From Paludibacteraceae bacterium (GTDB lineage Bacteria > Bacteroidota > Bacteroidia > Bacteroidales > Paludibacteraceae), in contig JAFOFC010000066.1 in the NCBI GenBank assembly GCA_017387515.1, positions 1-54,976 on the forward strand: a stretch of DNA of 54,976 bases, read 5' to 3'. Of this stretch, positions 6,092-54,921 are shown one piece after another. The notes below the pieces were generated by a model. That model saw only the letters and a program-made list of their open reading frames with translations, made no database searches and had not been told where the DNA came from. A program made the position numbers and the translations under genes. Position 1 is the stretch's first letter. Each line of letters starts with the position of its first letter.

Positions 6092-7045
6092 ATGATTAAT
6101 TATCCATTATCGTGGTTATCTGCCAAACGGTTTGGCAATTTAGCTAAATTGTTAGGCTCGTATATGCGTGCAGTCTTATGCGGAAATACCCGCATAGCAG
6201 GCTATCCATACGCTGCCTCTATAGAACCTGCTAACTATTGTAACTTATCTTGTCCGCAGTGCCCTACAGGAAGGCATCAAATCGATAAAAAGGCCCAAAA
6301 ATTATCGTATCAAGACTTTTCGTATGTAGTGGATGCTTTGTCACCCTACTTGATGTACCTTAACCTATATTTTCAAGGGGAGTCTTTTCTGAACAATGAT
6401 TTGCCCAAAATGATTCGATATGCTAGCAGTAAAAAAATCTATACTTGCGTATCTACCAACGGCCACTTTTTAACCCAAGAGGTAGTAGATGAACTAAAGC
6501 ATACAGGGTTAAATCGCCTAATTATCTGTTTAGATGGTGCCAATCAGCAATCGTACCAAAAGTATCGAGTAGGGGGCGATTTCTTGAAAGTAATCGATGG
6601 TATTAAACGTTGTGTTGCAGCAGGATTACCAGTTGAGGTGCAATGCTTGTTGTTGGAATCGACAGAAAATGAAAAACAAGCCATTGTTAGCCTAGTTAAA
6701 TCGTTGGGTGTTAGAAAGTTTTATTTTAAGAAGGCTCAGTTTTACGACAATTATTTGTTTCCCCAAAAAGAAGAAAATAGACGATATGTTCAGTTGGCAG
6801 ATGGTTCTTTACGTACCAAGAAAGCGTGGAAGAATAGATGCTTTAGGATGTGGTCATCTGTGATAGTGGATGTATATGGTAGGGTATTGCCTTGTTGTTA
6901 CGATAAACATGCAACGTATGCGTATGGGAATCTGTTTAAAGACTCTTTTTATGTTATATGGAATGGCGATAAGGCAGCAAAATTCAGGCAACAAATAAGA
7001 ACCAATAGGAAATCTATAGCAATGTGTACCAATTGTACCGAATAA
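6092..7045 (+). CDS. Radical SAM/SPASM domain protein
   Basis: A 317-residue radical SAM enzyme. The CNLSCPQCP motif (CxxxCxxC, about residues 49-56) should bind the catalytic 4Fe-4S cluster and S-adenosylmethionine. The C-terminal part (CFRMWSSVIVDVYGRVLPCC ... CTNC) is a SPASM-like domain for a second cluster, as in peptide-modifying and some lipid- or sugar-modifying enzymes. No precursor peptide is seen next to it, so the substrate is unknown. The ATG at 6092 is preferred to a GTG at 6077, which would fall in a TTTTG-containing promoter-like stretch; the choice is uncertain. Related proteins in Bacteroidota stand alone next to envelope genes. It converges on the lipoprotein gene at 7095 with a shared terminator. 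Confidence 0.8.
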   Translation: MINYPLSWLSAKRFGNLAKLLGSYMRAVLCGNTRIAGYPYAASIEPANYCNLSCPQCPTGRHQIDKKAQKLSYQDFSYVVDALSPYLMYLNLYFQGESFLNNDLPKMIRYASSKKIYTCVSTNGHFLTQEVVDELKHTGLNRLIICLDGANQQSYQKYRVGGDFLKVIDGIKRCVAAGLPVEVQCLLLESTENEKQAIVSLVKSLGVRKFYFKKAQFYDNYLFPQKEENRRYVQLADGSLRTKKAWKNRCFRMWSSVIVDVYGRVLPCCYDKHATYAYGNLFKDSFYVIWNGDKAAKFRQQIRTNRKSIAMCTNCTE

Positions 7046-44847: not shown

Positions 44848-45537
44848 ATGCAAACGGATATGAAACCGAATTTACCTTTTTTGCCCAAAGCTGTGTTTTT
44901 TGATATGGACGGAGTTATTTTTGACTCCATGCCCCGCCATGCCAAGGCTTGGAGCGAAGCCATGGCCCTAGAAGGCTTGCCTTTTTCTGAGTATCAAGTG
45001 TATTTGCAAGAGGGTAGAACCGGTTCGGGAACCGTAACCGATGTATTTTTAGCACATGGTAGGGGCGTGCCAACGGAGGCCGATATTCAGCGCATTTATG
45101 CCAACAAGAGTCGCCTTTTTGATGCTTTTGGAGACCCTATCCCAATGCGTGGTATGCACAATGTGCTAGAAAAGGTAAAATCGTTAGGACTAGAAATTTA
45201 CATTGTAACAGGCTCTGGCCAAGCTAGTCTGTTGGATACACTAAATCATTATTTTCCCCATACTTTCTACAAAGAAAAAATGGTAACTGCCTACGACGTT
45301 AAAAAGGGCAAGCCCGATCCAGAACCTTATCTTATGGCACTTGAAAAAGCGGGTTTGCAAGCGGACGAGGCCATAGTGGTAGAAAATGCCCCTTTGGGTG
45401 TGCGCTCTGCCAAAGGCGCAGGCATTTTTACCATTGCCGTAAATACTGGCATTCTTTCTGATGACGACCTTTGGCAAGCCGGCGCCGATGTGGTACTACC
45501 CGATATGGAGGCGTTGTTGGAATGGATAGGGAACTAA
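44848..45537 (+). CDS. HAD-family phosphatase, beta-phosphoglucomutase-like
   Basis: A 229-residue HAD hydrolase: FFDMDGVIFDSMPRHAKAWSEAM (catalytic DxD and cap start), IVTGSGQASLL (motif II), KKGKPDPEPYLMALEKAG (motif III Lys) and VVENAPLGVRSAKGAGIF (motif IV acidic pair partly replaced by E-N). This is the subclass with beta-phosphoglucomutase and 2-deoxyglucose-6-phosphatase; the sugar phosphate is not predictable. TATCTTTG at 44819-44826 is its -7 box. Structured RNA 2 follows after about 60 nt. Confidence 0.85.
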   Translation: MQTDMKPNLPFLPKAVFFDMDGVIFDSMPRHAKAWSEAMALEGLPFSEYQVYLQEGRTGSGTVTDVFLAHGRGVPTEADIQRIYANKSRLFDAFGDPIPMRGMHNVLEKVKSLGLEIYIVTGSGQASLLDTLNHYFPHTFYKEKMVTAYDVKKGKPDPEPYLMALEKAGLQADEAIVVENAPLGVRSAKGAGIFTIAVNTGILSDDDLWQAGADVVLPDMEALLEWIGN

Positions 45538-45558: not shown

Positions 45559-45591
45559 TTTGTAATTCGCTAAAGAATCTTATTATATTTG
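45559..45591 (+). promoter_or_regulatory. Promoter of structured RNA 2
   Basis: TTTG (45559-45562), a 21-nt spacer and TATATTTG (45584-45591) predict transcription from about 45598, just before the closing helix of the RNA. Confidence 0.75.
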
Positions 45592-45599
45592 CAATGAAT

Positions 45600-45894
45600 A
45601 TTACCCACGTCGATGAGAGTGTATAGTGTTACACAATGGCGTGGGATTATGTGAGCGTTTATTACGCATGTTCTGACATTTTAGAAACTTCGCAACTTTC
45701 TTAATAACGTAGATCAGAATATAGCAACGATAAATGTTTGCGGGATATGGGTATGTACATGGCATATCTATACTTTGTTGTATAGTATGTTTACTTATAT
45801 CGACGTGGGCTTTGCGTTGTCTGTTCTATTTACGTTAGGCAATGCGAAGGCCTCTAAAATGTGGAACGACAACAGTCGGGTCCACGTTTTTTTT
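45600..45894 (+). ncRNA. Structured RNA 2, multi-helix, upstream of the SPFH/protease genes
   Basis: About 295 nt with no gene and dense pairing. A closing helix CCCACGTCGAT (45604-45614) / ATCGACGTGGG (45799-45809) encloses GTGTA/TACAC (45619-45634), GCGT/ACGC (45655-45667), TTCTGA/TCAGAA (45671-45719), ATATG/CATAT (45745-45767) and CTATAC/GTATAG (45768-45785). Then CTTTGCGTTG pairs with CAATGCGAAG (45810-45849) and GTGGA-A-CGAC pairs with GTCG-GG-TCCAC (45861-45885), ending in eight T. GGGTCCAC can instead pair with GTGGGCTT (45805-45812), the same alternative helix as in RNA 1. Pattern plus promoter argues for a real RNA; its class is unknown to me. Confidence 0.65.
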
Positions 45895-45949
45895 ATGTCC
45901 TTTACATAGTCAATTAATAGTATTATATAACAATTAAATTTTATAAAAT

Positions 45950-48664
45950 ATGAACTGTCCTCATTGCGGATTTGATAGAATCCTTCCGATGTACAAAGTT
46001 TGCCCAAAGTGTAAACAATCTTTAAATTCTTCAGTAGAATCTAAAACAACGACAAAAGATAATGTTGAAGTACAATCTAACACCGAAACAAAATTGATAA
46101 CAGGTTTATTTTGGGCATATCAAAAGGCTATCAAGGATCCATCAGTATTTAAAGATTATGCAAAGAGAAATCCTAACGATAGTAAAAAATTATTAGAGAA
46201 GTGGAAGAATGAAGGTCGTGATATTTCTATGTTAATTTCTGCATCTGCATCTTCTGTTTCAAATAATGTTTTAACTACAGATTCATCAGTTCAATCGACA
46301 ATTAATTCTACAAATAATAATATAAGTAAAGGTGATGTAGCAACAATTACAACTAAAAATAAATCCAATAATTATATTACTTGGCAGATAACTCAGAATC
46401 AATTTGCTCGCAATATATCAGCACAAGAAGTTGCTAATATGTCAGATTCTGATGGAGTGTATGTTCAAGAGGGCGTAACAGCTGTCATATTTGTAGATGG
46501 TGAAATAGTTTCTGAACTTGAAGGAGGTGGTCTTTATAAGTTTGCATCATCAAAAGTATATCGTGAAGCTGAATTAAAGTACGCAGAAGATGAAGAAGAT
46601 AAGCGTGCTCATGAAGGTATTATAAAAAAGATTGGTAGAGTAGGTCGTTCCTTATTGAATTTAGTTTTTGGAAAAAGTGAGAAGGTTCGTCAGGAGAATA
46701 ATAGAAAACGCAGAGAAACAATTAAAGAGATAGCAAAAAAAATTACTGGTAACTCAATAGTGTCTGTCGTGTTGAAACGTGACGGTGTGGTGCGTACGAC
46801 AATGGGTATTAGACCAGTAACGACTGAAGACGGTGGTGTAAATATGGAATTTGCTCCTTATAAAATCCACACGAAATCACTCACAGTAGATCTTGCAGTT
46901 GATTTTGAGGCACGTATTACGAATTTCCGTGAGTTCCGTACTACATATTTGATGGATCAAAATTCATATTCAGCAAATGACCTTCGTACAGCTCTAAATA
47001 CTTTTATGCGAACTGCACTTCAACGTGCGCTTCAGAACTATGTGGCAGATGGAGAATTGCTTCCTGCTGAGTTAATGGCATCCATTAGTTATGAGTTAAT
47101 GGCAAAAAGCCAGGAATTACTACATGGGATTGCCATCACCAATGTTTTAGATATTACAACATCTAATGAGGCTTTTGAGCGTTTCCGAGCATTAGAGGAA
47201 AAACTCTTCTGTACAGACAAGGAAATAGATTATCTTAGTCGCACAAATGAGTTTAAGAATCGTCTTCAATCTGTAGAAAATCAACAAAAGGTTGCTGAAG
47301 CAAAAACAGAGCTAGAACTTCGTAAGGAACTTGATCAAATAAATAATGATCAACTAATCCACGACGATGAAATGGAGGCATTTGTACAACTTCTTCAAAG
47401 TCAAAAGCGAATTCGTGAGGCTCGAGCAGAAAATGAAGAACTTGCAGAGCTACTAAAATTGAAGGGTAATCGTCTTGTTAGTGAAGAAGAACTCGATGTA
47501 CTGGTGAACAGCATAAGAGACAAGAAGTTTGATCGTGAGCAAGTGTCTGCTACTTTCCAATTGAATGCAGTTCACCGAACAGAGATGACTCGTATTCAAT
47601 TAGATGCAGAGCGCCAAAAGAATCAGTTGCTCAATGAAGCCGAACTAAACGACATTCGCTTTGAGCAAGTGCGCAAAGAACTTGCTCGTGAAATAGAGTT
47701 ATCTGAGTTACAAGAAGAACATGAATTAGCTTCAGCTAAACGCCTAGACGACTATGCTGATTCTCGTCGTGATAAAGACTTTAACTTTGACCAACGCCAA
47801 AAAGAAGCCGAGTATGTACTTAAGCAACGAGAAGCACAAGATACACTTGATTTGGAGAAGCAACGTACCCAAAATGAAATGGATATTCTTCGTCAAAAAG
47901 CAGAGGTCGCTCGCCAAAATATGCAGGCTATGCAACAACATGAGCAAGAAATGGCGGAGAAGAAACATCAAGAAGAAATGGCTCGCATTGCAGCTCAACA
48001 AAATATGACTGCTGAACAATTGATGGCTGCTGGTGCTGCAGGGTTGTCGGCGGAGGCACAAAAGGCTTTTGCCGAATCGTTAGCTGCTGCTAAGGGAGGA
48101 GACAAGGAACGTGAAATGTATGAGCGTATGCTTCAAATGCAAGCTGATAGCAATTCTTCAAATCAAGCACAACAAGCTGCGATGATGCAACAGATGATGA
48201 CTATGATGCAAGGAGCAATGCAAACTAATGCTACTATGGCAACGAATATGGCAGCAGGTCAGGCTGCGCAACAACAAGCACAACTAGAAGCTATGCAGAA
48301 TATCGCAGGTGCGCGAATCGCTCAAACTGAAGGAATGAAGGATGAGTACCGCAAGCAGATGGAACATGAACAGAAACGCACAGATGCTGCACAAGATAAA
48401 GCTCTCAACTATACAACCAAAATAACTCAAGAAGAAATAAAAGCAGAATCAAATATTGCAGGAAAAGTTAGTCCTAAGGATGAAGAAGCATCTTATTTTA
48501 TACCTGACTTTGGTACTAATTACACCATAAAGGAAATTGGTAACTTGATTTTGAACGGTACTATTGATCCTGATACTGAGTTAGAAGTCAATGGTGAATC
48601 CATGACTGTAGCTGAGGTAGAGGAATTCTATCCATTTCTTGAGAAAAAATATGGAAACGCATAA
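45950..48664 (+). CDS. Zinc-ribbon SPFH/band-7 protein with long coiled coil
   Basis: A 904-residue protein with no signal peptide. Residues 3-21 are a zinc ribbon (CPHC ... CPKC). After a Ser/Asn/Thr-rich linker, residues about 145-430 look like an SPFH domain of the cytoplasmic virion-core-like/flotillin group (VYVQEGVTAVIFVDGEIVSELEGGGLYKF; VDLAVDFEARITNF). Residues about 425-700 are a charged coiled coil, 680-830 are Gln/Met/Ala-rich, and 855-904 resemble a GYF_2-type tail (YTIKEIGNLILNGTIDPDTELEV). Such proteins oligomerise into rings or patches at membranes. It starts about 55 nt after RNA 2 and opens a run of five co-directional genes. Codons such as AGA and ATA are commoner than in core genes, suggesting transfer. 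Confidence 0.78.
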   Translation: MNCPHCGFDRILPMYKVCPKCKQSLNSSVESKTTTKDNVEVQSNTETKLITGLFWAYQKAIKDPSVFKDYAKRNPNDSKKLLEKWKNEGRDISMLISASASSVSNNVLTTDSSVQSTINSTNNNISKGDVATITTKNKSNNYITWQITQNQFARNISAQEVANMSDSDGVYVQEGVTAVIFVDGEIVSELEGGGLYKFASSKVYREAELKYAEDEEDKRAHEGIIKKIGRVGRSLLNLVFGKSEKVRQENNRKRRETIKEIAKKITGNSIVSVVLKRDGVVRTTMGIRPVTTEDGGVNMEFAPYKIHTKSLTVDLAVDFEARITNFREFRTTYLMDQNSYSANDLRTALNTFMRTALQRALQNYVADGELLPAELMASISYELMAKSQELLHGIAITNVLDITTSNEAFERFRALEEKLFCTDKEIDYLSRTNEFKNRLQSVENQQKVAEAKTELELRKELDQINNDQLIHDDEMEAFVQLLQSQKRIREARAENEELAELLKLKGNRLVSEEELDVLVNSIRDKKFDREQVSATFQLNAVHRTEMTRIQLDAERQKNQLLNEAELNDIRFEQVRKELAREIELSELQEEHELASAKRLDDYADSRRDKDFNFDQRQKEAEYVLKQREAQDTLDLEKQRTQNEMDILRQKAEVARQNMQAMQQHEQEMAEKKHQEEMARIAAQQNMTAEQLMAAGAAGLSAEAQKAFAESLAAAKGGDKEREMYERMLQMQADSNSSNQAQQAAMMQQMMTMMQGAMQTNATMATNMAAGQAAQQQAQLEAMQNIAGARIAQTEGMKDEYRKQMEHEQKRTDAAQDKALNYTTKITQEEIKAESNIAGKVSPKDEEASYFIPDFGTNYTIKEIGNLILNGTIDPDTELEVNGESMTVAEVEEFYPFLEKKYGNA

Positions 48665-48684
48665 TAGATAAGAGGATAATAGTT

Positions 48685-50724
48685 ATGTCAATGTTTATTC
48701 CATGTCAACATTGCGGTCATCAATATACAGAAGATTGGACCTGGTATATTTGTGATACATGTGGATACCGCATATGTATGAATTGTTATGGAAGCCATTC
48801 TGGTCCAGGAAATGGCCATAATAGTGGTGGAGGTAAGTGTAGTCAATGTCAAACAGGGTGGTTGCACATACAACATGGTATTCGTTCTTCTATATCAACG
48901 CCACTCACTAGTAGTAAGTTGGATGAGTATCTTTCTCGCGCAAGAGGTGGCAATAAGTCTCAGGAGAATCAATATACAACAGAAATATGCGAGCAATCTA
49001 CTTATTCTGAACAAGAACTATATCGTGCAAATTCATCAAATAAGACTCCAAAAGGAATTATTTACACCAATACAGCTCTCATTGCTAGCAAATATAAGAA
49101 TACAGATGCTACAGATGTACGTAATATTATATTAGATTTTATGCGTGCCTCTGAAAATAAGTCTGGCTTCATTTGGGACTTAATTGATCTAAGTTCGGAA
49201 GATATGAAAGGAGCAATAGCAGATGATGCTTCATGGATGGAGTATGCACAATTCTTGTCTGACTATTGTGAAGGTATGGGTATTTGTAAGTCTGCACGCA
49301 CACCATTATTCATTATAGGAGGTAGTGATGTTATTCCAATGCCTGAGTTTTACGCAAGCGTGGGACACGATGTTAAAACTATTGAAGACTCGGATATGCT
49401 CTATTGTTTTCCTATAAATTATCCTTGGAAGAAAGTTTCTATTGATGATGCCATATTCAATGTAGCACGTCTTCCTTTAGATTACGTAGAAAGTGGAAAA
49501 CTTTCGTCATCAGTGCAAGATGATCTGGGAGGATATTTCAAGCGTGCAGTTAAAGTTTTATCAGATGGGATCCCATTAACATATGCTATGATGACAGCAA
49601 ATGCGGGAAAAAATGGCAATAATGATTGGACATGGACATCGGCTGATGTTATGGCAAAACTCCCACAACAACAATTGAAAAATGATGGTAAATTAACACG
49701 TGATAATATGTTTTTGTGTCCATCTTTAGATGTGATGGGAGAAGAATATTATAGTAATGAGAATGTAAAAATATATAAGAATTATCTGTCTAAAACAGAT
49801 ATGCTATTCATAAATTTACATGGTTCACCCAATAAGGAATATTCTGGTTATCTTGGTCAAGAGGATTATGCTCCTTATTGGGGTATGTCAATTGAATTGA
49901 TGAAGCAATTGAAGTCCCCAATCATAAATGCCTTTCCTTGTTACGGAGCACGTTATGGAAAATATTTCTTTGATAACAATGATGGTAGTATGCCTGAATA
50001 TCAAGTTTATGATCGAGAAGATTCTATGTTGCTGACAGCTTTCTATAATGGCAATGTTCTGCTTTTTACAGGTTCGTGTACTAGCAGTATGTGTAGTAAT
50101 GTAATAGGTAATGGCACTATCGTAGATCATCTAAACGAGACAAACCATCCTGTAGATTTGTTGATGCCTGCAGGTTACGCAGAGGCAATGCTTAAACTCT
50201 ATGCTTGTTATCTGTTCCAAGGCGAACAAGCTGGCTATGCTATGCTTCGTGCAAAGATAGATTATCTCAATTATCGAGCAAAGTATGAGAACAAGGACCT
50301 TGTTTTCTTAACGCTTAATCAGTTTAATCTTTTTGGATGTCCAATACTCTTTTCTACACCGCAGGACGCAACACACCAATTGCGTGAATCGTTTGAGTCT
50401 ATGAGTATTCCTGCAAAAGAGTTGCCTGATGTAGAATATAATACAGAGTTTGACCGCTTTGAGCAAGGTGTTGACGGTATACTTAATCGTGCACGCACAC
50501 TTGTGGATAACAATCTCAAATTATTAGAAGAAAAAATTCGTACAGAACTCTATGGCGCATTAGGTCTCACAGAAGATAGCCTTACTCGTATTGAGAGTGT
50601 CGAATACCAAGGTCAACAATCTTATAATTTGACCTATGCCAAAAAGAATAAGTTCTATCCAGAATTCTACATTGTACAAACCGATGCAAATGGTGAAATT
50701 AAAGAAGTTTTAAAATCTAGATAA
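48685..50724 (+). CDS. Cytoplasmic caspase-fold (C25/gingipain-like) cysteine protease with zinc-binding N-terminus
   Basis: A 679-residue protein lacking a signal peptide or T9SS tail. Residues 7-55 are a Cys/His-rich finger (CQHC, CDTC, CMNC, CSQC, plus His38 and His45), treble-clef/B-box-like. Residues about 120-560 resemble the peptidase C25 caspase fold: TPLFIIGGSDVIPMPEF (205-221), NVARLPLDYVESGKL (259-273), the probable catalytic His379 in LFINLHGS and Cys419 in NAFPCYGAR, 40 residues apart, as a caspase/gingipain dyad requires. A second Cys465 is in FTGSCTSS. The C-terminal 110 residues include a helix. Gingipains are secreted; this one appears intracellular. It follows the SPFH gene by 20 nt. 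Confidence 0.75.
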   Translation: MSMFIPCQHCGHQYTEDWTWYICDTCGYRICMNCYGSHSGPGNGHNSGGGKCSQCQTGWLHIQHGIRSSISTPLTSSKLDEYLSRARGGNKSQENQYTTEICEQSTYSEQELYRANSSNKTPKGIIYTNTALIASKYKNTDATDVRNIILDFMRASENKSGFIWDLIDLSSEDMKGAIADDASWMEYAQFLSDYCEGMGICKSARTPLFIIGGSDVIPMPEFYASVGHDVKTIEDSDMLYCFPINYPWKKVSIDDAIFNVARLPLDYVESGKLSSSVQDDLGGYFKRAVKVLSDGIPLTYAMMTANAGKNGNNDWTWTSADVMAKLPQQQLKNDGKLTRDNMFLCPSLDVMGEEYYSNENVKIYKNYLSKTDMLFINLHGSPNKEYSGYLGQEDYAPYWGMSIELMKQLKSPIINAFPCYGARYGKYFFDNNDGSMPEYQVYDREDSMLLTAFYNGNVLLFTGSCTSSMCSNVIGNGTIVDHLNETNHPVDLLMPAGYAEAMLKLYACYLFQGEQAGYAMLRAKIDYLNYRAKYENKDLVFLTLNQFNLFGCPILFSTPQDATHQLRESFESMSIPAKELPDVEYNTEFDRFEQGVDGILNRARTLVDNNLKLLEEKIRTELYGALGLTEDSLTRIESVEYQGQQSYNLTYAKKNKFYPEFYIVQTDANGEIKEVLKSR

Positions 50725-50749
50725 ATAACTATTGTTGATAATTTTTTAT

Positions 50750-51244
50750 ATGGAACTTTATCATGCAACTATCAAGGAATATGAAAACGGGCAAACATAT
50801 TCTATAGATGATTATGAGGGTGATAATTATTTTTATACAAAATTAAACGACGAGCAGAAGAAAGTGGAAGAACTATTAGAAGAGTCCCGCAATCAGGATA
50901 CTCCTCAACGTAGAAAATGTTTCTTTTTTTTTGATAATCTAGATTATTGTTCGTATTTCTTTTCTAGACAATATCCAGGCGAACCATTTCATGTATACAA
51001 AGTAAATGTTGAGGATGTAAGAGGTGGATTTCCAATGTGTATGGTAAATGCAATAAAGAATAATATTGAACTTGCCCCAATGATGGTTGATGAGTATTGG
51101 GAACCTAAGAGTAAATGGAATGTTCTTGAATATTTAAGCAACAAAATGATTATTATTGAAGAGTGTGAAGTTAATAATAACCATATAAGTGCATCGTACC
51201 AATATAATTTAGATTCAGAAAAAGCAGGTAACTTTAATGCATAG
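50750..51244 (+). CDS. DUF2441-like small protein, possible ADP-ribosyltransferase fold
   Basis: A 164-residue protein. It opens MELYHATIKEYENGQTY, then RRKCFFFFDNLDYCSYFF, FHVYKVNVED and a late EYWEP ... WNVLEYLSNKMIIIEE. This order (YHxT, F-rich strand, Y-containing strand, C-terminal E) is what I associate with DUF2441 and related ART-like folds, where an H-Y-E type triad could bind NAD. I see no certain catalytic triad, so call it fold-level only. The ATG at 50750 is chosen over a TTG at 50732. It is 25 nt after the protease gene and 27 nt before the next, so it belongs to the same transcript and could be effector, toxin or modifier. Confidence 0.5.
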   Translation: MELYHATIKEYENGQTYSIDDYEGDNYFYTKLNDEQKKVEELLEESRNQDTPQRRKCFFFFDNLDYCSYFFSRQYPGEPFHVYKVNVEDVRGGFPMCMVNAIKNNIELAPMMVDEYWEPKSKWNVLEYLSNKMIIIEECEVNNNHISASYQYNLDSEKAGNFNA

Positions 51245-51271
51245 ATATACAGATAAAACGATAAAAAGCAA

Positions 51272-52789
51272 ATGAGTAAAATTTGTCCGATATGTAATCA
51301 TGAATGGCCAGACAACTTTCAGTCTTGTCCTTTAGATTCAACTCCTTTAATAAACAAAATAGAATCTACTTCTGGATTTTCTCTTAATTTAGGAGATGCT
51401 AATGCTGTATCTGGAGGTATAAACTTATCAGATAATCATTCAATTAATACTACAAATACTCATAATGTAGATTCGCATAATGTAATAACCAATAACATTA
51501 CGCAAATTGAACGCGAGAAAAGTATTGAGGAAATTAAGCATGAAAAAGAGCAGTCTTTCCGAGAAGCTTGCAAGAATGTTTATCAACATGGCTTAATGAC
51601 TTCTGATAATAAGAAGAAGTTAGAAGATATACAGTATCAACTGGGGTTAGATGGAATAACAGCATCGCGAATTATTTCGGAAGTTGCACGTCGTTTTGAA
51701 AAAAAGTCTGATGTGCTTTCTCCAGTACATCAAATAACATTTAACAATATTAAAACGGCAATATCTGCTAATCGTCTTGATATTGTAAATAGACTTTTAG
51801 CACAAATGAAAGCCATGGTGCAGAGGTACTCTACTGAAGATGTACAATATACCTATTATATGCTTCAAGCTATTTTGCATCCTAACACATGTATTGTTGA
51901 CTATGAAAACCAGCAAGAGGACAAGTATTGGCAATCGTTTTGGTCTTCAATCGCTTACCGCAAAGTAGGTGATATTGAAAAGTCTGAAATCTTGGTCGCA
52001 GATATCGGAGATAAATGGATAGATATTATTCCTCAAGAAAATGTATTTATACTGGCAGCAGTTAATGCTATGCTTGATAAGGATTATGAGTCTGCTAAAT
52101 CCTTATATGATAATGTAACAGGAGAACATTCTACACTCCTAACAGAATTGGTTTCTTGCATTTATACATTACTCTATAGAGACGCTCTTGCTGTAGATGA
52201 TTTGAAACAAATGCAGCAAGAGTGCAAATTCTATTCTGTAAATCTGTTTGATTCATGCAATGTACCGCAAATAAGTCATAATGAGACACTAAATTTTGAA
52301 CATTTTGAAGCAAAAGAGATACATGCAGTAGATGCTTCTCAATCAAATGCTGCGGAACCCAAACAAGAGGTAGAGGTGGTGCAAACACAAAAGGTCGCAA
52401 TACCCGAAAAGAAAATAGTATCACCCTCAAAAGCAGAGATACCTATAATTCCTCAAGCAGAACCGAAAAAAGAATTAGATATAATGAGTAATCCAATGTT
52501 GTTATTTGAATTGCTTAGTAAAACCACAACAGAGCAAATGCGTACATATAATCTCCTTTTGGAGTCTGCCTCAAAAGGAGACGGTAAAGCGGGTGTGTAT
52601 CTGGCATATTTTTACTTACATGGCATCATTGTTTCTGCTGATCTTAAAGAGGCGGAAAAAAGAATACTAAATAGTAATTATCAGAACGATCCTATTCTCA
52701 TTCAATTATTGATTGAGTTATATAACAAAAAAGGAGTAGCTGCGTTAGCAGATGTTTGGAAAAGAAAGTTAAATGCCTTAAAAAAATAA
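51272..52789 (+). CDS. Zinc-ribbon protein with TPR/Sel1-like helical repeats
   Basis: A 505-residue soluble protein. Residues 5-19 are a zinc ribbon (CPIC ... CPLD). Residues about 35-75 are low-complexity Asn/Thr/His/Ser, reading like tandem NxT/HN units. Residues about 75-120 are charged helix, and about 155-320 consist of helical pairs. After a Pro/Glu/Lys-rich linker (about 355-410), a Sel1-type pair (YNLLLESASKGDGKAGVYLAYFYLHGIIV) ends the chain. Probably a scaffold or sensor for the SPFH/protease module. No enzymatic motif. 6 nt before the next gene. Confidence 0.65.
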   Translation: MSKICPICNHEWPDNFQSCPLDSTPLINKIESTSGFSLNLGDANAVSGGINLSDNHSINTTNTHNVDSHNVITNNITQIEREKSIEEIKHEKEQSFREACKNVYQHGLMTSDNKKKLEDIQYQLGLDGITASRIISEVARRFEKKSDVLSPVHQITFNNIKTAISANRLDIVNRLLAQMKAMVQRYSTEDVQYTYYMLQAILHPNTCIVDYENQQEDKYWQSFWSSIAYRKVGDIEKSEILVADIGDKWIDIIPQENVFILAAVNAMLDKDYESAKSLYDNVTGEHSTLLTELVSCIYTLLYRDALAVDDLKQMQQECKFYSVNLFDSCNVPQISHNETLNFEHFEAKEIHAVDASQSNAAEPKQEVEVVQTQKVAIPEKKIVSPSKAEIPIIPQAEPKKELDIMSNPMLLFELLSKTTTEQMRTYNLLLESASKGDGKAGVYLAYFYLHGIIVSADLKEAEKRILNSNYQNDPILIQLLIELYNKKGVAALADVWKRKLNALKK

Positions 52790-52795
52790 AGTATC

Positions 52796-54658
52796 ATGAA
52801 ATTAGTTTGTCGTCAATGTGGTGCCCAATATGAAAAGGGTAAGTTTTGTCTTGAATGTGGAAGTCCATTAGAAGAGATGCAAGTCCAAAAAGTATTATAT
52901 TGTACCAATTGTCAAATGGTAGTAGAGTCTGGTAAATTTTGTCCAGAATGTGGCACTAAACTAGAAGAACGCGAAGTGGAATCGCCAATTAATACCAATT
53001 CTAATCCACTAGAAACTGGTATGGAGATAGAAACTGTATCAACAAACATCACAAGTGGCGATGAAGAAATTGAGACTATTCTATCAAAATATAGAGATGA
53101 ATATGGCGATATGCGCACCTTAAACAAAGAAGAGTATGCTGTCGCTTTAGAAGAAATTAAACATTGTGTGGATAAAGAAAATATAGAGGCGATGTGTTTT
53201 TTAGCCAATCTCTATATGGATGGTGATGGTGTTCCAAAAAATGAAACTGTAGCATACAACTTATTGAGAGAAGCAGAAAATAAAGGTTCTGAATATGCGA
53301 AAGCAATGTTAGCAATCTTTTATATGAAAGGAATGATAGTTGAACAAGATATTGATGAGGCAATTAACCGTTTGGTAAATGGATATAATAAGTTAAATAA
53401 TCCGTCTATAGCAGGTGTGCTGGCGAGGTTGTATTATGAATTGAATGATTTTAAAAAGGCATTGAAGTATGCGACTGAAGCAGTAGAAAAAAATGAAATG
53501 AGAGGTCTGGTTGTTTTAGGCTCGATGTATCTTAATGGTTATGAATTTGATAAGAATGAGGAAAAAGCATTTGATTTTTATATGGAAGCAGCCGCAATGG
53601 GAGAAGAAACAGCATTAAATCAAATTGGTTGGATGTATATGAATGGCATAGGAGTAGAGAAAAATACTTCGCAAGCATACTTTTGGTTTAATGAGTCTGC
53701 TCAGAAAGGTTCTGATGTTGGTATGTATAATTTAGCTTGTTGCTATAGAGATGGATATGGTGTTGAACAAGATATTGAAAAATCCACAGAATGGTTTAAA
53801 AAAGCATTTGAAGCAGGATATGTAGAAGAACTGGCTGAAAATACTGAGGAGAATTTATTAGACAATGCTAATTGTTTTTTTGAATCTAACGACTATAAGT
53901 CAGCATTAATTATTTATAAAGATTTAGCTGAGAATGGGAATGTCAGTGCTATGGTACATTATGGGATTTGTTTGATAAACGGACTTGGTACAAAGCAGAA
54001 TATGAAAGAGGGGATAGATTGGTTATCAAAAGGAGCAGATCAAGGTTCTGCTTTAGCATGCGTAAAATTAGCAGAAATTTATTTAGGTTTTGAATACAAT
54101 AAAAAGCAATTAAAACCTGATAGCAAAATGTCGAGAAAATATATTGAATTGGCTCAGAAATATGGCATTGATACTTCTGAAATCTCTGATTTAATTAAAA
54201 TGACCACACCATCTGCAAAGATTACTGGTTTGAAGTATATGTCTAATAGCATACAAGATAATACTTTGGGTGTAGAATTTTCTTTTGAACTAATAGTAGA
54301 TGGAATGTTAGGAGAAGATGTAAATGTATCAGTTTTAAATATAAATGAATTTACGGAGAAAAGTGTATCAAAAAAACCGTGTAAATGTTTATATGAGCCG
54401 ATAGAATGTGTTTATACTACTATTTTAAAACCAGAATACACATCTGTTCTATGGAAACCATATACGTTCTTTGTTCCTTATGATATGCTATGTGAATTTA
54501 ACAACCTTAATAATACTTTAGTTTTAATAATATGGAATCTGTCAGAGAAGAAACCTGTTCAATTAATAAAAGAGGAATTTCAATACGAACTTACACATAC
54601 TAAACATTTATTTAGAGCAGATGAATGGGGTTTCAAGTTATTAAGAAAATCTAAATAG
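52796..54658 (+). CDS. Double zinc-ribbon Sel1-repeat protein
   Basis: A 620-residue soluble protein. Two zinc ribbons lie at residues 5-21 (CRQCG ... CLECG) and 36-53 (CTNCQ ... CPECG). Residues about 120-470 hold at least eight Sel1-like repeats (for example ALNQIGWMYMNGIGVEKNTSQAYFWFNESAQKGS). Residues about 475-620 form a beta-rich C-terminal domain of unknown type (VEFSFELIVDGMLGEDVNVSVLN). The Sel1 array should bind peptide partners. Follows its predecessor by 6 nt and ends the run. No clear terminator except a hairpin at 54701. Confidence 0.7.
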   Translation: MKLVCRQCGAQYEKGKFCLECGSPLEEMQVQKVLYCTNCQMVVESGKFCPECGTKLEEREVESPINTNSNPLETGMEIETVSTNITSGDEEIETILSKYRDEYGDMRTLNKEEYAVALEEIKHCVDKENIEAMCFLANLYMDGDGVPKNETVAYNLLREAENKGSEYAKAMLAIFYMKGMIVEQDIDEAINRLVNGYNKLNNPSIAGVLARLYYELNDFKKALKYATEAVEKNEMRGLVVLGSMYLNGYEFDKNEEKAFDFYMEAAAMGEETALNQIGWMYMNGIGVEKNTSQAYFWFNESAQKGSDVGMYNLACCYRDGYGVEQDIEKSTEWFKKAFEAGYVEELAENTEENLLDNANCFFESNDYKSALIIYKDLAENGNVSAMVHYGICLINGLGTKQNMKEGIDWLSKGADQGSALACVKLAEIYLGFEYNKKQLKPDSKMSRKYIELAQKYGIDTSEISDLIKMTTPSAKITGLKYMSNSIQDNTLGVEFSFELIVDGMLGEDVNVSVLNINEFTEKSVSKKPCKCLYEPIECVYTTILKPEYTSVLWKPYTFFVPYDMLCEFNNLNNTLVLIIWNLSEKKPVQLIKEEFQYELTHTKHLFRADEWGFKLLRKSK

Positions 54659-54732: not shown

Positions 54733-54921
54733 GCTTTATCCATCTATTTGGAAGGATGTTTCTATAAGCCTCTATTGAAGGATTTCTGTTTAGTATTTCT
54801 GTTCTGTTGAGTATGTCGGTGAGATATTCAAAGAAATTGATCTTATGTAACCTACATGAGCAAGCTAGCGAGTAGAAGATGCAACCACGCTTAGTTCCTT
54901 CATTAATGTAACAGTGATCTC
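54728..54921 (-). pseudogene. 3' remnant of an IS66-type transposase
   Basis: About 64 codons on the minus strand, ending at a stop codon (54728-54730), read CHYINEGTKRGCIFYSLACS then CRLHKINFFEYLTDILNR and YRNILPNRWIKQ. This matches the C-terminal tail of IS66 TnpC proteins (YSLIxSCKxxxxNPFEYLxDVL ... LLPxxW). A stop codon follows on the 5' side near 54925, and the rest to the window edge (to 54976) is not in frame, so it is a decayed fragment. It marks the island's right border as a mobile site. Confidence 0.6.

Follow-up and report, generated by a model that had tools for sequence, protein, structure and literature searches.

The window analysed here, a 54,976-nucleotide (nt) stretch of contig JAFOFC010000066.1 from a Paludibacteraceae bacterium whose genome assembly comprises 1.76 Mb in 81 contigs and is ~87% complete, carries near its end a module of five genes in which a gene for a protein with a remotely SPFH-like domain is followed directly by a gene for a predicted C25-type cysteine protease. 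The first gene, P0001 (45950..48664, + strand), encodes 904 residues with a zinc ribbon, the SPFH-like domain and a coiled-coil-like part, and the second, P0002 (48685..50724, +), encodes 679 residues with a zinc-finger domain and the protease domain. They are followed by P0003 (50750..51244, +), an accessory protein of 164 residues from its ATG, with an alternative TTG start at 50732; by P0004 (51272..52789, +), a 505-residue partner with a degenerate zinc ribbon, a region rich in asparagine and serine (N/S-rich) and a helical part; and by P0005 (52796..54658, +), a 620-residue protein with a double zinc ribbon and Sel1 repeats in which no membrane helix was seen. An earlier reading made from the letters of the DNA (the sequence-only reading) had described five co-directional genes with short gaps, and this description held, all five open reading frames lying on the + strand with gaps of 20, 25, 27 and 6 nt, the second being 7 nt with the TTG start. 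Direct domain searches of the window proteins against Pfam, NCBIfam, PHROGs and PADLOC, and of P0002 against PDB, returned little beyond Sel1, zinc ribbons and EMC7, and relatives were therefore used. The module loci discussed below are the window, L002, L011 (in genome G078), L012 (G111), L035 (G843) and L036 (G848).

The protease and the SPFH-like protein

P0002 consists of an N-terminal zinc-finger domain (residues 1-61) and a C25-type protease domain beginning at about residue 122. The predicted catalytic residues are His379, within an N-x-H-G motif (codon 49819..49821, +), and Cys419, within a C-Y/F-G motif (codon 49939..49941, +). Both were invariant in 7/7 module and solitary relatives and again in 9/9 proteins of a second set, which included three Rhizobium proteins annotated as C25 family cysteine peptidase and drawn from 7 plasmid records matching the L012 protease. 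The C25 identity comes through relatives. P0002 alone gave no useful match in Pfam, NCBIfam or PDB, and Pfam Peptidase_C25 (PF01364) had no hit for P0002 or the L002 protease; the cut-off of 23 bits was passed by the proteases of L011 (27.1 bits) and L012 (40.6 bits), in a scan that covered P0002 and its relatives in L002, L011 and L012. P0002 and the L011 protease aligned at 101 bits with 24% identity, and no PDB sequence matched the protease profile at E<=10. The earlier claim of a C25-like protease with a His379/Cys419 dyad was borne out by the invariance of the motif in the relatives, and we accept P0002 as a predicted C25-type protease with its dyad intact. The protease had also been described as lacking an export signal, and a simple, rather crude hydropathy scan indeed showed none: no window protein contained a 19-residue stretch with a mean hydropathy of at least 1.5, the threshold used throughout. 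One copy of the protease is present in the window genome.

P0001 begins with a four-cysteine zinc ribbon (C3, C6, C18 and C21, invariant 4/4), followed by the SPFH-like domain at approximately residues 141-400 and then the long coiled-coil-like part. It aligned with its L011 homologue at 233 bits. The motif ALNYTT near the C-terminus is common to the window, L002 and L011, and an extra C-terminal ribbon is present in the SPFH-like proteins of L002, L011 and L036 and missing from that of the window. The sequence-only reading had called P0001 a zinc-ribbon SPFH/coiled-coil protein; the N-terminal ribbon stood, but no Pfam SPFH model matched, and it is profile-profile comparison that gives the assignment of the domain as remotely SPFH-like moderate support. 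No SPFH match for P0001 was found in NCBIfam or PHROGs, and PF13421 had no match in the window's genome. A profile of six module domains (A7) was compared by hhalign with a profile of seven Band_7_1 proteins (A8), one from genome G852 and six from plasmids, the latter representing six of 19 plasmid records, all six annotated as SPFH proteins. On domain columns the two profiles were collinear over 190 columns with a score of 30.2 and a nominal probability of 8.4%. The best of 199 column-shuffled controls stayed below it at 27.2 (mean of all, 15.7), and reversing the alignment brought the score down to 12.6. When A7 was compared with six unrelated families, the scores were 13.9-17.6. The same six families scored 14.6-29.7 against A8, where the value of 29.7 covered 18 columns of the zinc-ribbon partner family and is attributed to shared zinc ribbons.

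Recurrence of the pair and its two settings

The protease and SPFH-like genes were adjacent in 6/6 loci having both, with the SPFH-like gene first in two and the C25 gene first in four, and a zinc-ribbon/Sel1-type partner came next in these six loci, directly or past one small gene. The window has the order SPFH-C25-P0003-partner and L002 the order SPFH-C25-partner; the order is C25-SPFH-partner in L012 and L035 and also in L011 and L036, where a small gene precedes the partner. L002 was obtained from a contig scan for relatives of P0002 and belongs to a metagenome-assembled genome of Bacteroidaceae from horse faeces (68% in the best segment). When an order-wide sample of 393 genomes was searched with P0002, nine genomes matched, of which the window's own, G078 and G111 did so at full length and six by the zinc finger only. 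Profiles for the C25 (A3) and SPFH-like (A4) proteins each matched 3/393 of these genomes, the same three; as both profiles had been trained on sequences from those very genomes, what this result mainly conveys is that the remaining 390 yielded neither gene. C25 was found in 2/395 genomes of a phylum sample, the window's own and G642, where the gene is solitary; the samples taken after the order-wide one overlap it in part. Within families the distribution was patchy, with C25 in 1/61 genomes of the window's family (G000), 1/5 of G078's and 3/15 of G111's. Two of the protease matches in the last family (G843 and G848) were new, and the SPFH-like gene adjoined the protease in both. L035 shares flanks and ~80% identity with L012 and is its syntenic counterpart in a congener, which leaves L036, with different flanks and ~34-44% identity, as the one separate new case.

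Absences of genes in loci were scored by tblastn; the simple gene caller loses genes that are overlapped by a longer open reading frame, and the SPFH-like gene of L012, lost in this way, was read by hand. Across 23 loci, tblastn with SPFH-like queries gave matches only in the five other module loci. The pair thus recurred where the exact five-gene set put forward by the sequence-only reading did not, an outcome which that reading had itself named as refuting it, since P0003 had no tblastn relative in the 23 loci and a P0005-type Sel1 relative was present only in L002 (37%, E 1.6e-76). A chance neighbourhood, in which an unrelated protease and a non-SPFH coiled-coil protein were joined by drift or recent transfer, would be consistent with the small number of loci, with the lack of a Pfam Band_7 hit and with the existence of solitary C25 relatives. 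However, the two genes are always adjacent, in two gene orders, despite protein identities of 24-28%, and L036 retains the pair within other flanks, and we consider chance highly improbable. The evidence supports a single unit made up of an SPFH-like scaffold and a caspase-type protease.

The module loci were divided into type A (L011, L012, L035 and L036, in two families) and type B (the window and L002). In type A, a lytic transglycosylase gene precedes the protease gene (Pfam SLT and Mltc_N in L011, BLAST in the others), and the partner gene is followed by genes for LpoB-like and DUF6175 proteins and, where the retrieved sequence extends far enough, by one for an LPP20 protein. Pfam matched DUF6175 in L011 at E 6.8e-57 and LPP20 in L012 at E 4e-10, and the LpoB model gave 22.4 bits in L036 against a cut-off of 22.3, 17.0 in L012 and no match in L011; a label of CsgG-like given to a type A protein by eye was dropped, as Pfam indicates LpoB instead. 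An N-terminal hydrophobic stretch reaching the threshold was present in 5/8 envelope proteins tested from L011 and L012. The same scan found a strong membrane helix in the partner of 4/4 type A loci and 0/2 type B loci and, in some of the C25 and SPFH-like proteins of type A, internal hydrophobic stretches of 1.6-1.86. In type B, the envelope genes of type A are absent and Sel1 proteins without a membrane helix are found instead. These added genes of type A suggest envelope and peptidoglycan stress as the first candidate context of the module.

DUF6175 is also common by itself (62/267 genomes), and no mention of it was found in the open-licence papers searched. Six DUF6175 loci (L076-L081) contained no C25 or SPFH-like gene by blastp or tblastn. 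As a separate observation, a neighbourhood of LpoB-like and DUF6175 genes recurs both in type A loci and in L076, L078, L079 and L080, with LPP20 in some, and LPP20 is also present in L077.

The envelope genes next to type A modules would also suit a role in protein sorting or maturation, in which the C25 enzyme would process cargo and the SPFH-like protein would serve as a chaperone-like assembly platform; the founding members of C25 do mature surface proteins. The window protease and SPFH-like protein, however, begin with zinc ribbons or fingers rather than export signals, and the type B module includes no recognised exported gene. Such a role appears quite improbable.

Accessory genes, flanks and the upstream RNA

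P0003 had been described in the sequence-only reading as DUF2441-like, which was not confirmed: the window's genome yielded nothing for PF10386 at E<=1, and this model was also missing from the Pfam matches of P0003 at that level. The sole Pfam match of P0003 over cut-off was to EMC7_beta-sandw (29.6 bits vs 26.6), a domain of a eukaryotic endoplasmic reticulum protein, and phrog_5663 matched at E 3.6e-5. P0004 and P0005 had been described as two zinc-ribbon Sel1 proteins, a description that suits P0005 (Pfam Sel1, E 2.3e-39; DZR 26.5 bits, just under the cut-off of 27.3) but not P0004, which had no Sel1 hit at E<=1 and retains 3/4 ribbon cysteines. P0004 matched the zinc-ribbon, transmembrane protein of L011 with E 4e-7 in a single comparison and 5.5e-6 by tblastn. 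In L012, L035 and L036 tblastn found nothing that matched it directly; the partners there are tied to it only through L011 and through a common architecture in which a ribbon and an N/S-rich region are followed by repeats at the C-terminus. By eye, N/S-rich repeats follow the zinc ribbon in all six aligned partners (approximately residues 40-80 of P0004), and this region could be a beta-solenoid or an amyloid-like oligomerisation segment. The ratio of nonsynonymous to synonymous substitution rates between the window and L002 was saturated in 4/5 comparisons and was 0.28 for P0005 and its Sel1 counterpart.

The stand-alone zinc-finger proteins (L013-L018) of the six genomes matched by the zinc finger of P0002 only were considered as module members and rejected, since they are accompanied by neither an SPFH-like gene nor a protease domain by tblastn in the stretches retrieved. 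These proteins, of ~63 residues and from other Bacteroidales, resemble the P0002 zinc finger at 49-59% identity (L014, 8633-8824, - strand; L016, 7817-8002, + strand; also L013, L015, L017 and L018). Genes labelled by eye as radical-SAM-like lie near them in L015-L018 and genes labelled as Ser/Thr-kinase-like in L015, L017 and L018. In both G376 (L013) and G201 (L017), the frame that matched includes a stop.

Upstream, a conserved flank outside the system ends with a HAD hydrolase gene (44848..45537, +; Pfam HAD). Gene order through the HAD gene is common to the congeneric loci L037 and L038, the neighbourhoods diverge after it, and C25 had no match in the genomes of these two loci (G817 and G787), indicating that the module occupies a variable slot. 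Downstream, at the contig end and likewise outside the system, lies a probable C-terminal remnant of an IS66-type transposase (54737..54919, -), for which the match to DDE_Tnp_IS66_C was weak (21.3 bits, E 3.2e-4, below the cut-off of 30). The module, a rare one found in gut-type bacteria, is apparently mobile and of Bacteroidales, the window holding its compact type B version. P0002 was matched by none of 72,556 plasmid and 50,697 phage records, P0003 and the L036 SPFH-like protein were matched by no plasmid record, and searches of viral contigs with peptide patterns for P0001, P0002, P0003 and the two profiles turned up no relative; carriage as plasmid or phage cargo is therefore unsupported.

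These settings bear on the main rival explanation, that the module acts in abortive infection or cell death, with the platform sensing phage-induced membrane damage and releasing the C25 protease, which would stop growth or kill the cell. Sporadic occurrence within families (1/61 and 3/15), the variable slot beside a conserved block, the weak IS66-like remnant and a dyad that has not decayed are all in its favor, as is the recurrence of caspase-superfamily peptidases in bacterial conflict systems described in the available part of PMC7159879. On the other hand, none of the five window proteins and nine related proteins was convincingly matched by PADLOC 2.0.0, which returned in the window only weak matches to Csx23 (P0002, E 0.0096) and PtuA (P0005, E 0.0032) and none at E<=0.01 among the nine. 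The missing plasmid and phage matches of P0002, the unmatched viral contigs and the wall genes that accompany type A loci also speak against immunity, and the module genes scanned with Pfam showed no sensor or nucleotide-cyclase domain. We regard an immune or cell-death function as unlikely.

Between the HAD gene and P0001, a 311-nt stretch (45590..45900, +) is predicted to form a structured RNA (-103.1 kcal/mol, z -6.43 against 100 shuffles) with a hairpin before eight T, which is present in the computed fold and missing from a simple hairpin scan. L002 has a counterpart at 6355-6700, beside quite different genes, with a fold z of -6.71. The two RNAs align over most of their length, 3/500 dinucleotide shuffles scoring as high, and both are preceded by the motif TAnnTTTGC, which we take to be the Bacteroidetes -7 element. 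A long-range stem (45604-45612 / 45801-45809) is possible in both, with 9/9 pairs, two of them compensatory, and sliding the partner strand lowered pairing to 22-44% of cells. The shuffle control, however, was weak with two sequences (119/500), and the minimum-energy folds of both RNAs pair the 5' arm locally, so that the stem may form only as an alternative state, or not at all. Among 83 loci, the paired RNA pattern was found only in L002 and L025, a copy of the window, and in none of the type A loci searched; it had 0 viral matches, and no Rfam family reached its cut-off. A Prevotella match to the RNA fell in a signal-peptide-like coding start and was taken as chance; the RNA search also gave the weak matches H28, in a phage record (E 0.03), and H29 (E 0.3). 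With two examples, the RNA may be either a small noncoding RNA or an attenuator-like leader.

Proposed function and relation to known systems

SPFH proteins regulate proteases, as HflKC does with FtsH. In B. subtilis, according to the available part of PMC8581546, the SPFH protein YdjI is likely soluble and depends on YdjG/YdjH to be brought to the membrane, and loss of YdjG or YdjH deregulates cell wall synthesis under alkali shock. Given the unit formed by the two genes and the envelope genes beside it in type A, our preferred reading, held tentatively and with a little less than even confidence, is that an SPFH-like platform holds a cytosolic C25 protease for envelope stress. By analogy with YdjI and YdjG/YdjH, the SPFH-like protein would form a ring- or patch-shaped assembly at the inner membrane or close to it, and the zinc ribbons and Sel1/TPR repeats would act as docking surfaces that retain the protease. 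Membrane or wall damage would alter the platform and cause the protease to be freed or clustered, and the protease would then cut a cytosolic or membrane target, so that the module would serve as a switch in envelope stress or quality control. The mechanism put forward in the sequence-only reading, a scaffold that may keep the protease inactive until a Sel1 partner senses a signal and frees it, is compatible with these findings as a candidate. The partner that crosses the membrane in type A may connect the platform with peptidoglycan enzymes. Type B has no such arm; soluble Sel1 proteins may substitute for it there, and the upstream structured RNA probably controls expression. The target, the trigger and the role of the RNA are the least certain parts of this proposal.

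Several results weigh against an envelope platform. P0001 and its five relatives (L002, L011, L012, L035 and L036) were unmatched by Pfam Band_7 and Band_7_1, plain HMMER comparison with Band_7_1 proteins was not significant (best E 14), the nominal probability from hhalign was 4-11%, and the untrimmed profiles, also at 4-11%, aligned over 57-58 columns. With no membrane helix detectable in the window module, its association with the membrane would be by analogy, and no PspA or TPM-domain (YdjH) hit was found by Pfam among the module genes scanned, a search that did not extend to all neighbours. Since L076-L080 carry envelope genes of type A in the absence of C25 or SPFH-like genes, the envelope link could be loose co-location, and since L035 is syntenic with L012, the six loci represent at most five separate contexts. 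In B. subtilis, loss of YdjI or PspA did not produce the wall phenotype, according to the available part of the same source (PMC8581546).

We also considered a bolder form of the proposal, in which an SPFH particle, assembled at the membrane or as a ring, houses the C25 'caspase' under structured-RNA control as a vault-like chamber for envelope damage, wired to functions that cut and build peptidoglycan through a single-pass zinc-ribbon/Sel1 protein in one lineage and acting as a cytosolic, RNA-linked possible death switch in the other. We hold this form to be decidedly improbable, and a parallel to the vault NADase (PMC13174449, available in part) was not adopted. If the preferred reading of a platform that holds the protease is true, the conserved pairing of such a platform with a caspase-type C25 protease in the cytosol, tied to peptidoglycan enzymes in one lineage, would be a new route from envelope damage to proteolysis and a testable parallel to eukaryotic caspase-activating platforms. 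The upstream RNA is a separate testable question.

The absence of a named system with this set of genes, as stated in the sequence-only reading, stands against PADLOC and the open-licence literature searched; none of the papers listed there describes the gene set in its available parts. The best-documented comparison is the B. subtilis PspA-YdjG-YdjH-YdjI operon, where YdjG has two zinc ribbons and the Band-7 protein (there YdjL) has one (PMC11237479, available part). The module resembles this operon in placing a zinc-ribbon SPFH-like protein beside a zinc-ribbon partner, which in type A has a membrane helix, and, as far as the available sources go, in the link of type A loci to the envelope and wall. 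Unlike the operon, it has a C25 protease in the place of PspA and includes Sel1/TPR-type repeats, has no PspA or TPM-domain hit in the genes scanned and bears only remote SPFH similarity.

Peptidases of family C25 are known mainly as secreted enzymes. The module protease resembles this family, including gingipain, in the Pfam matches of L011 and L012 and in the HG...C motif, and differs from it in having no export signal seen, an N-terminal zinc ribbon or finger and an SPFH-like scaffold gene alongside, the window protein itself falling below Pfam detection. Solitary C25 peptidases (L028 in G642; L048-L050 on Rhizobium plasmids) have the same protease domain (L012 vs Rhizobium 22%, E 5e-13) but no N-terminal zinc ribbon and, by tblastn in the stretches searched, no SPFH-like or partner gene. 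On the Rhizobium plasmids L048 and L049, the C25 gene lies near genes annotated as caspase family protein, chitosanase and murein L,D-transpeptidase, a further case of a protease close to wall enzymes.

The module also resembles the vWA-MoxR/VMAP and iSTAND ternary systems, in the available part of PMC7159879, in having a predicted cytosolic caspase-superfamily effector within a mobile-looking module. It differs from them in the C25 subtype of the effector, in showing no such partner domain among its Pfam hits and in having no convincing PADLOC match. Platforms at the envelope built from SPFH and zinc-ribbon proteins are already known, and what would be new here is a protease effector on one.

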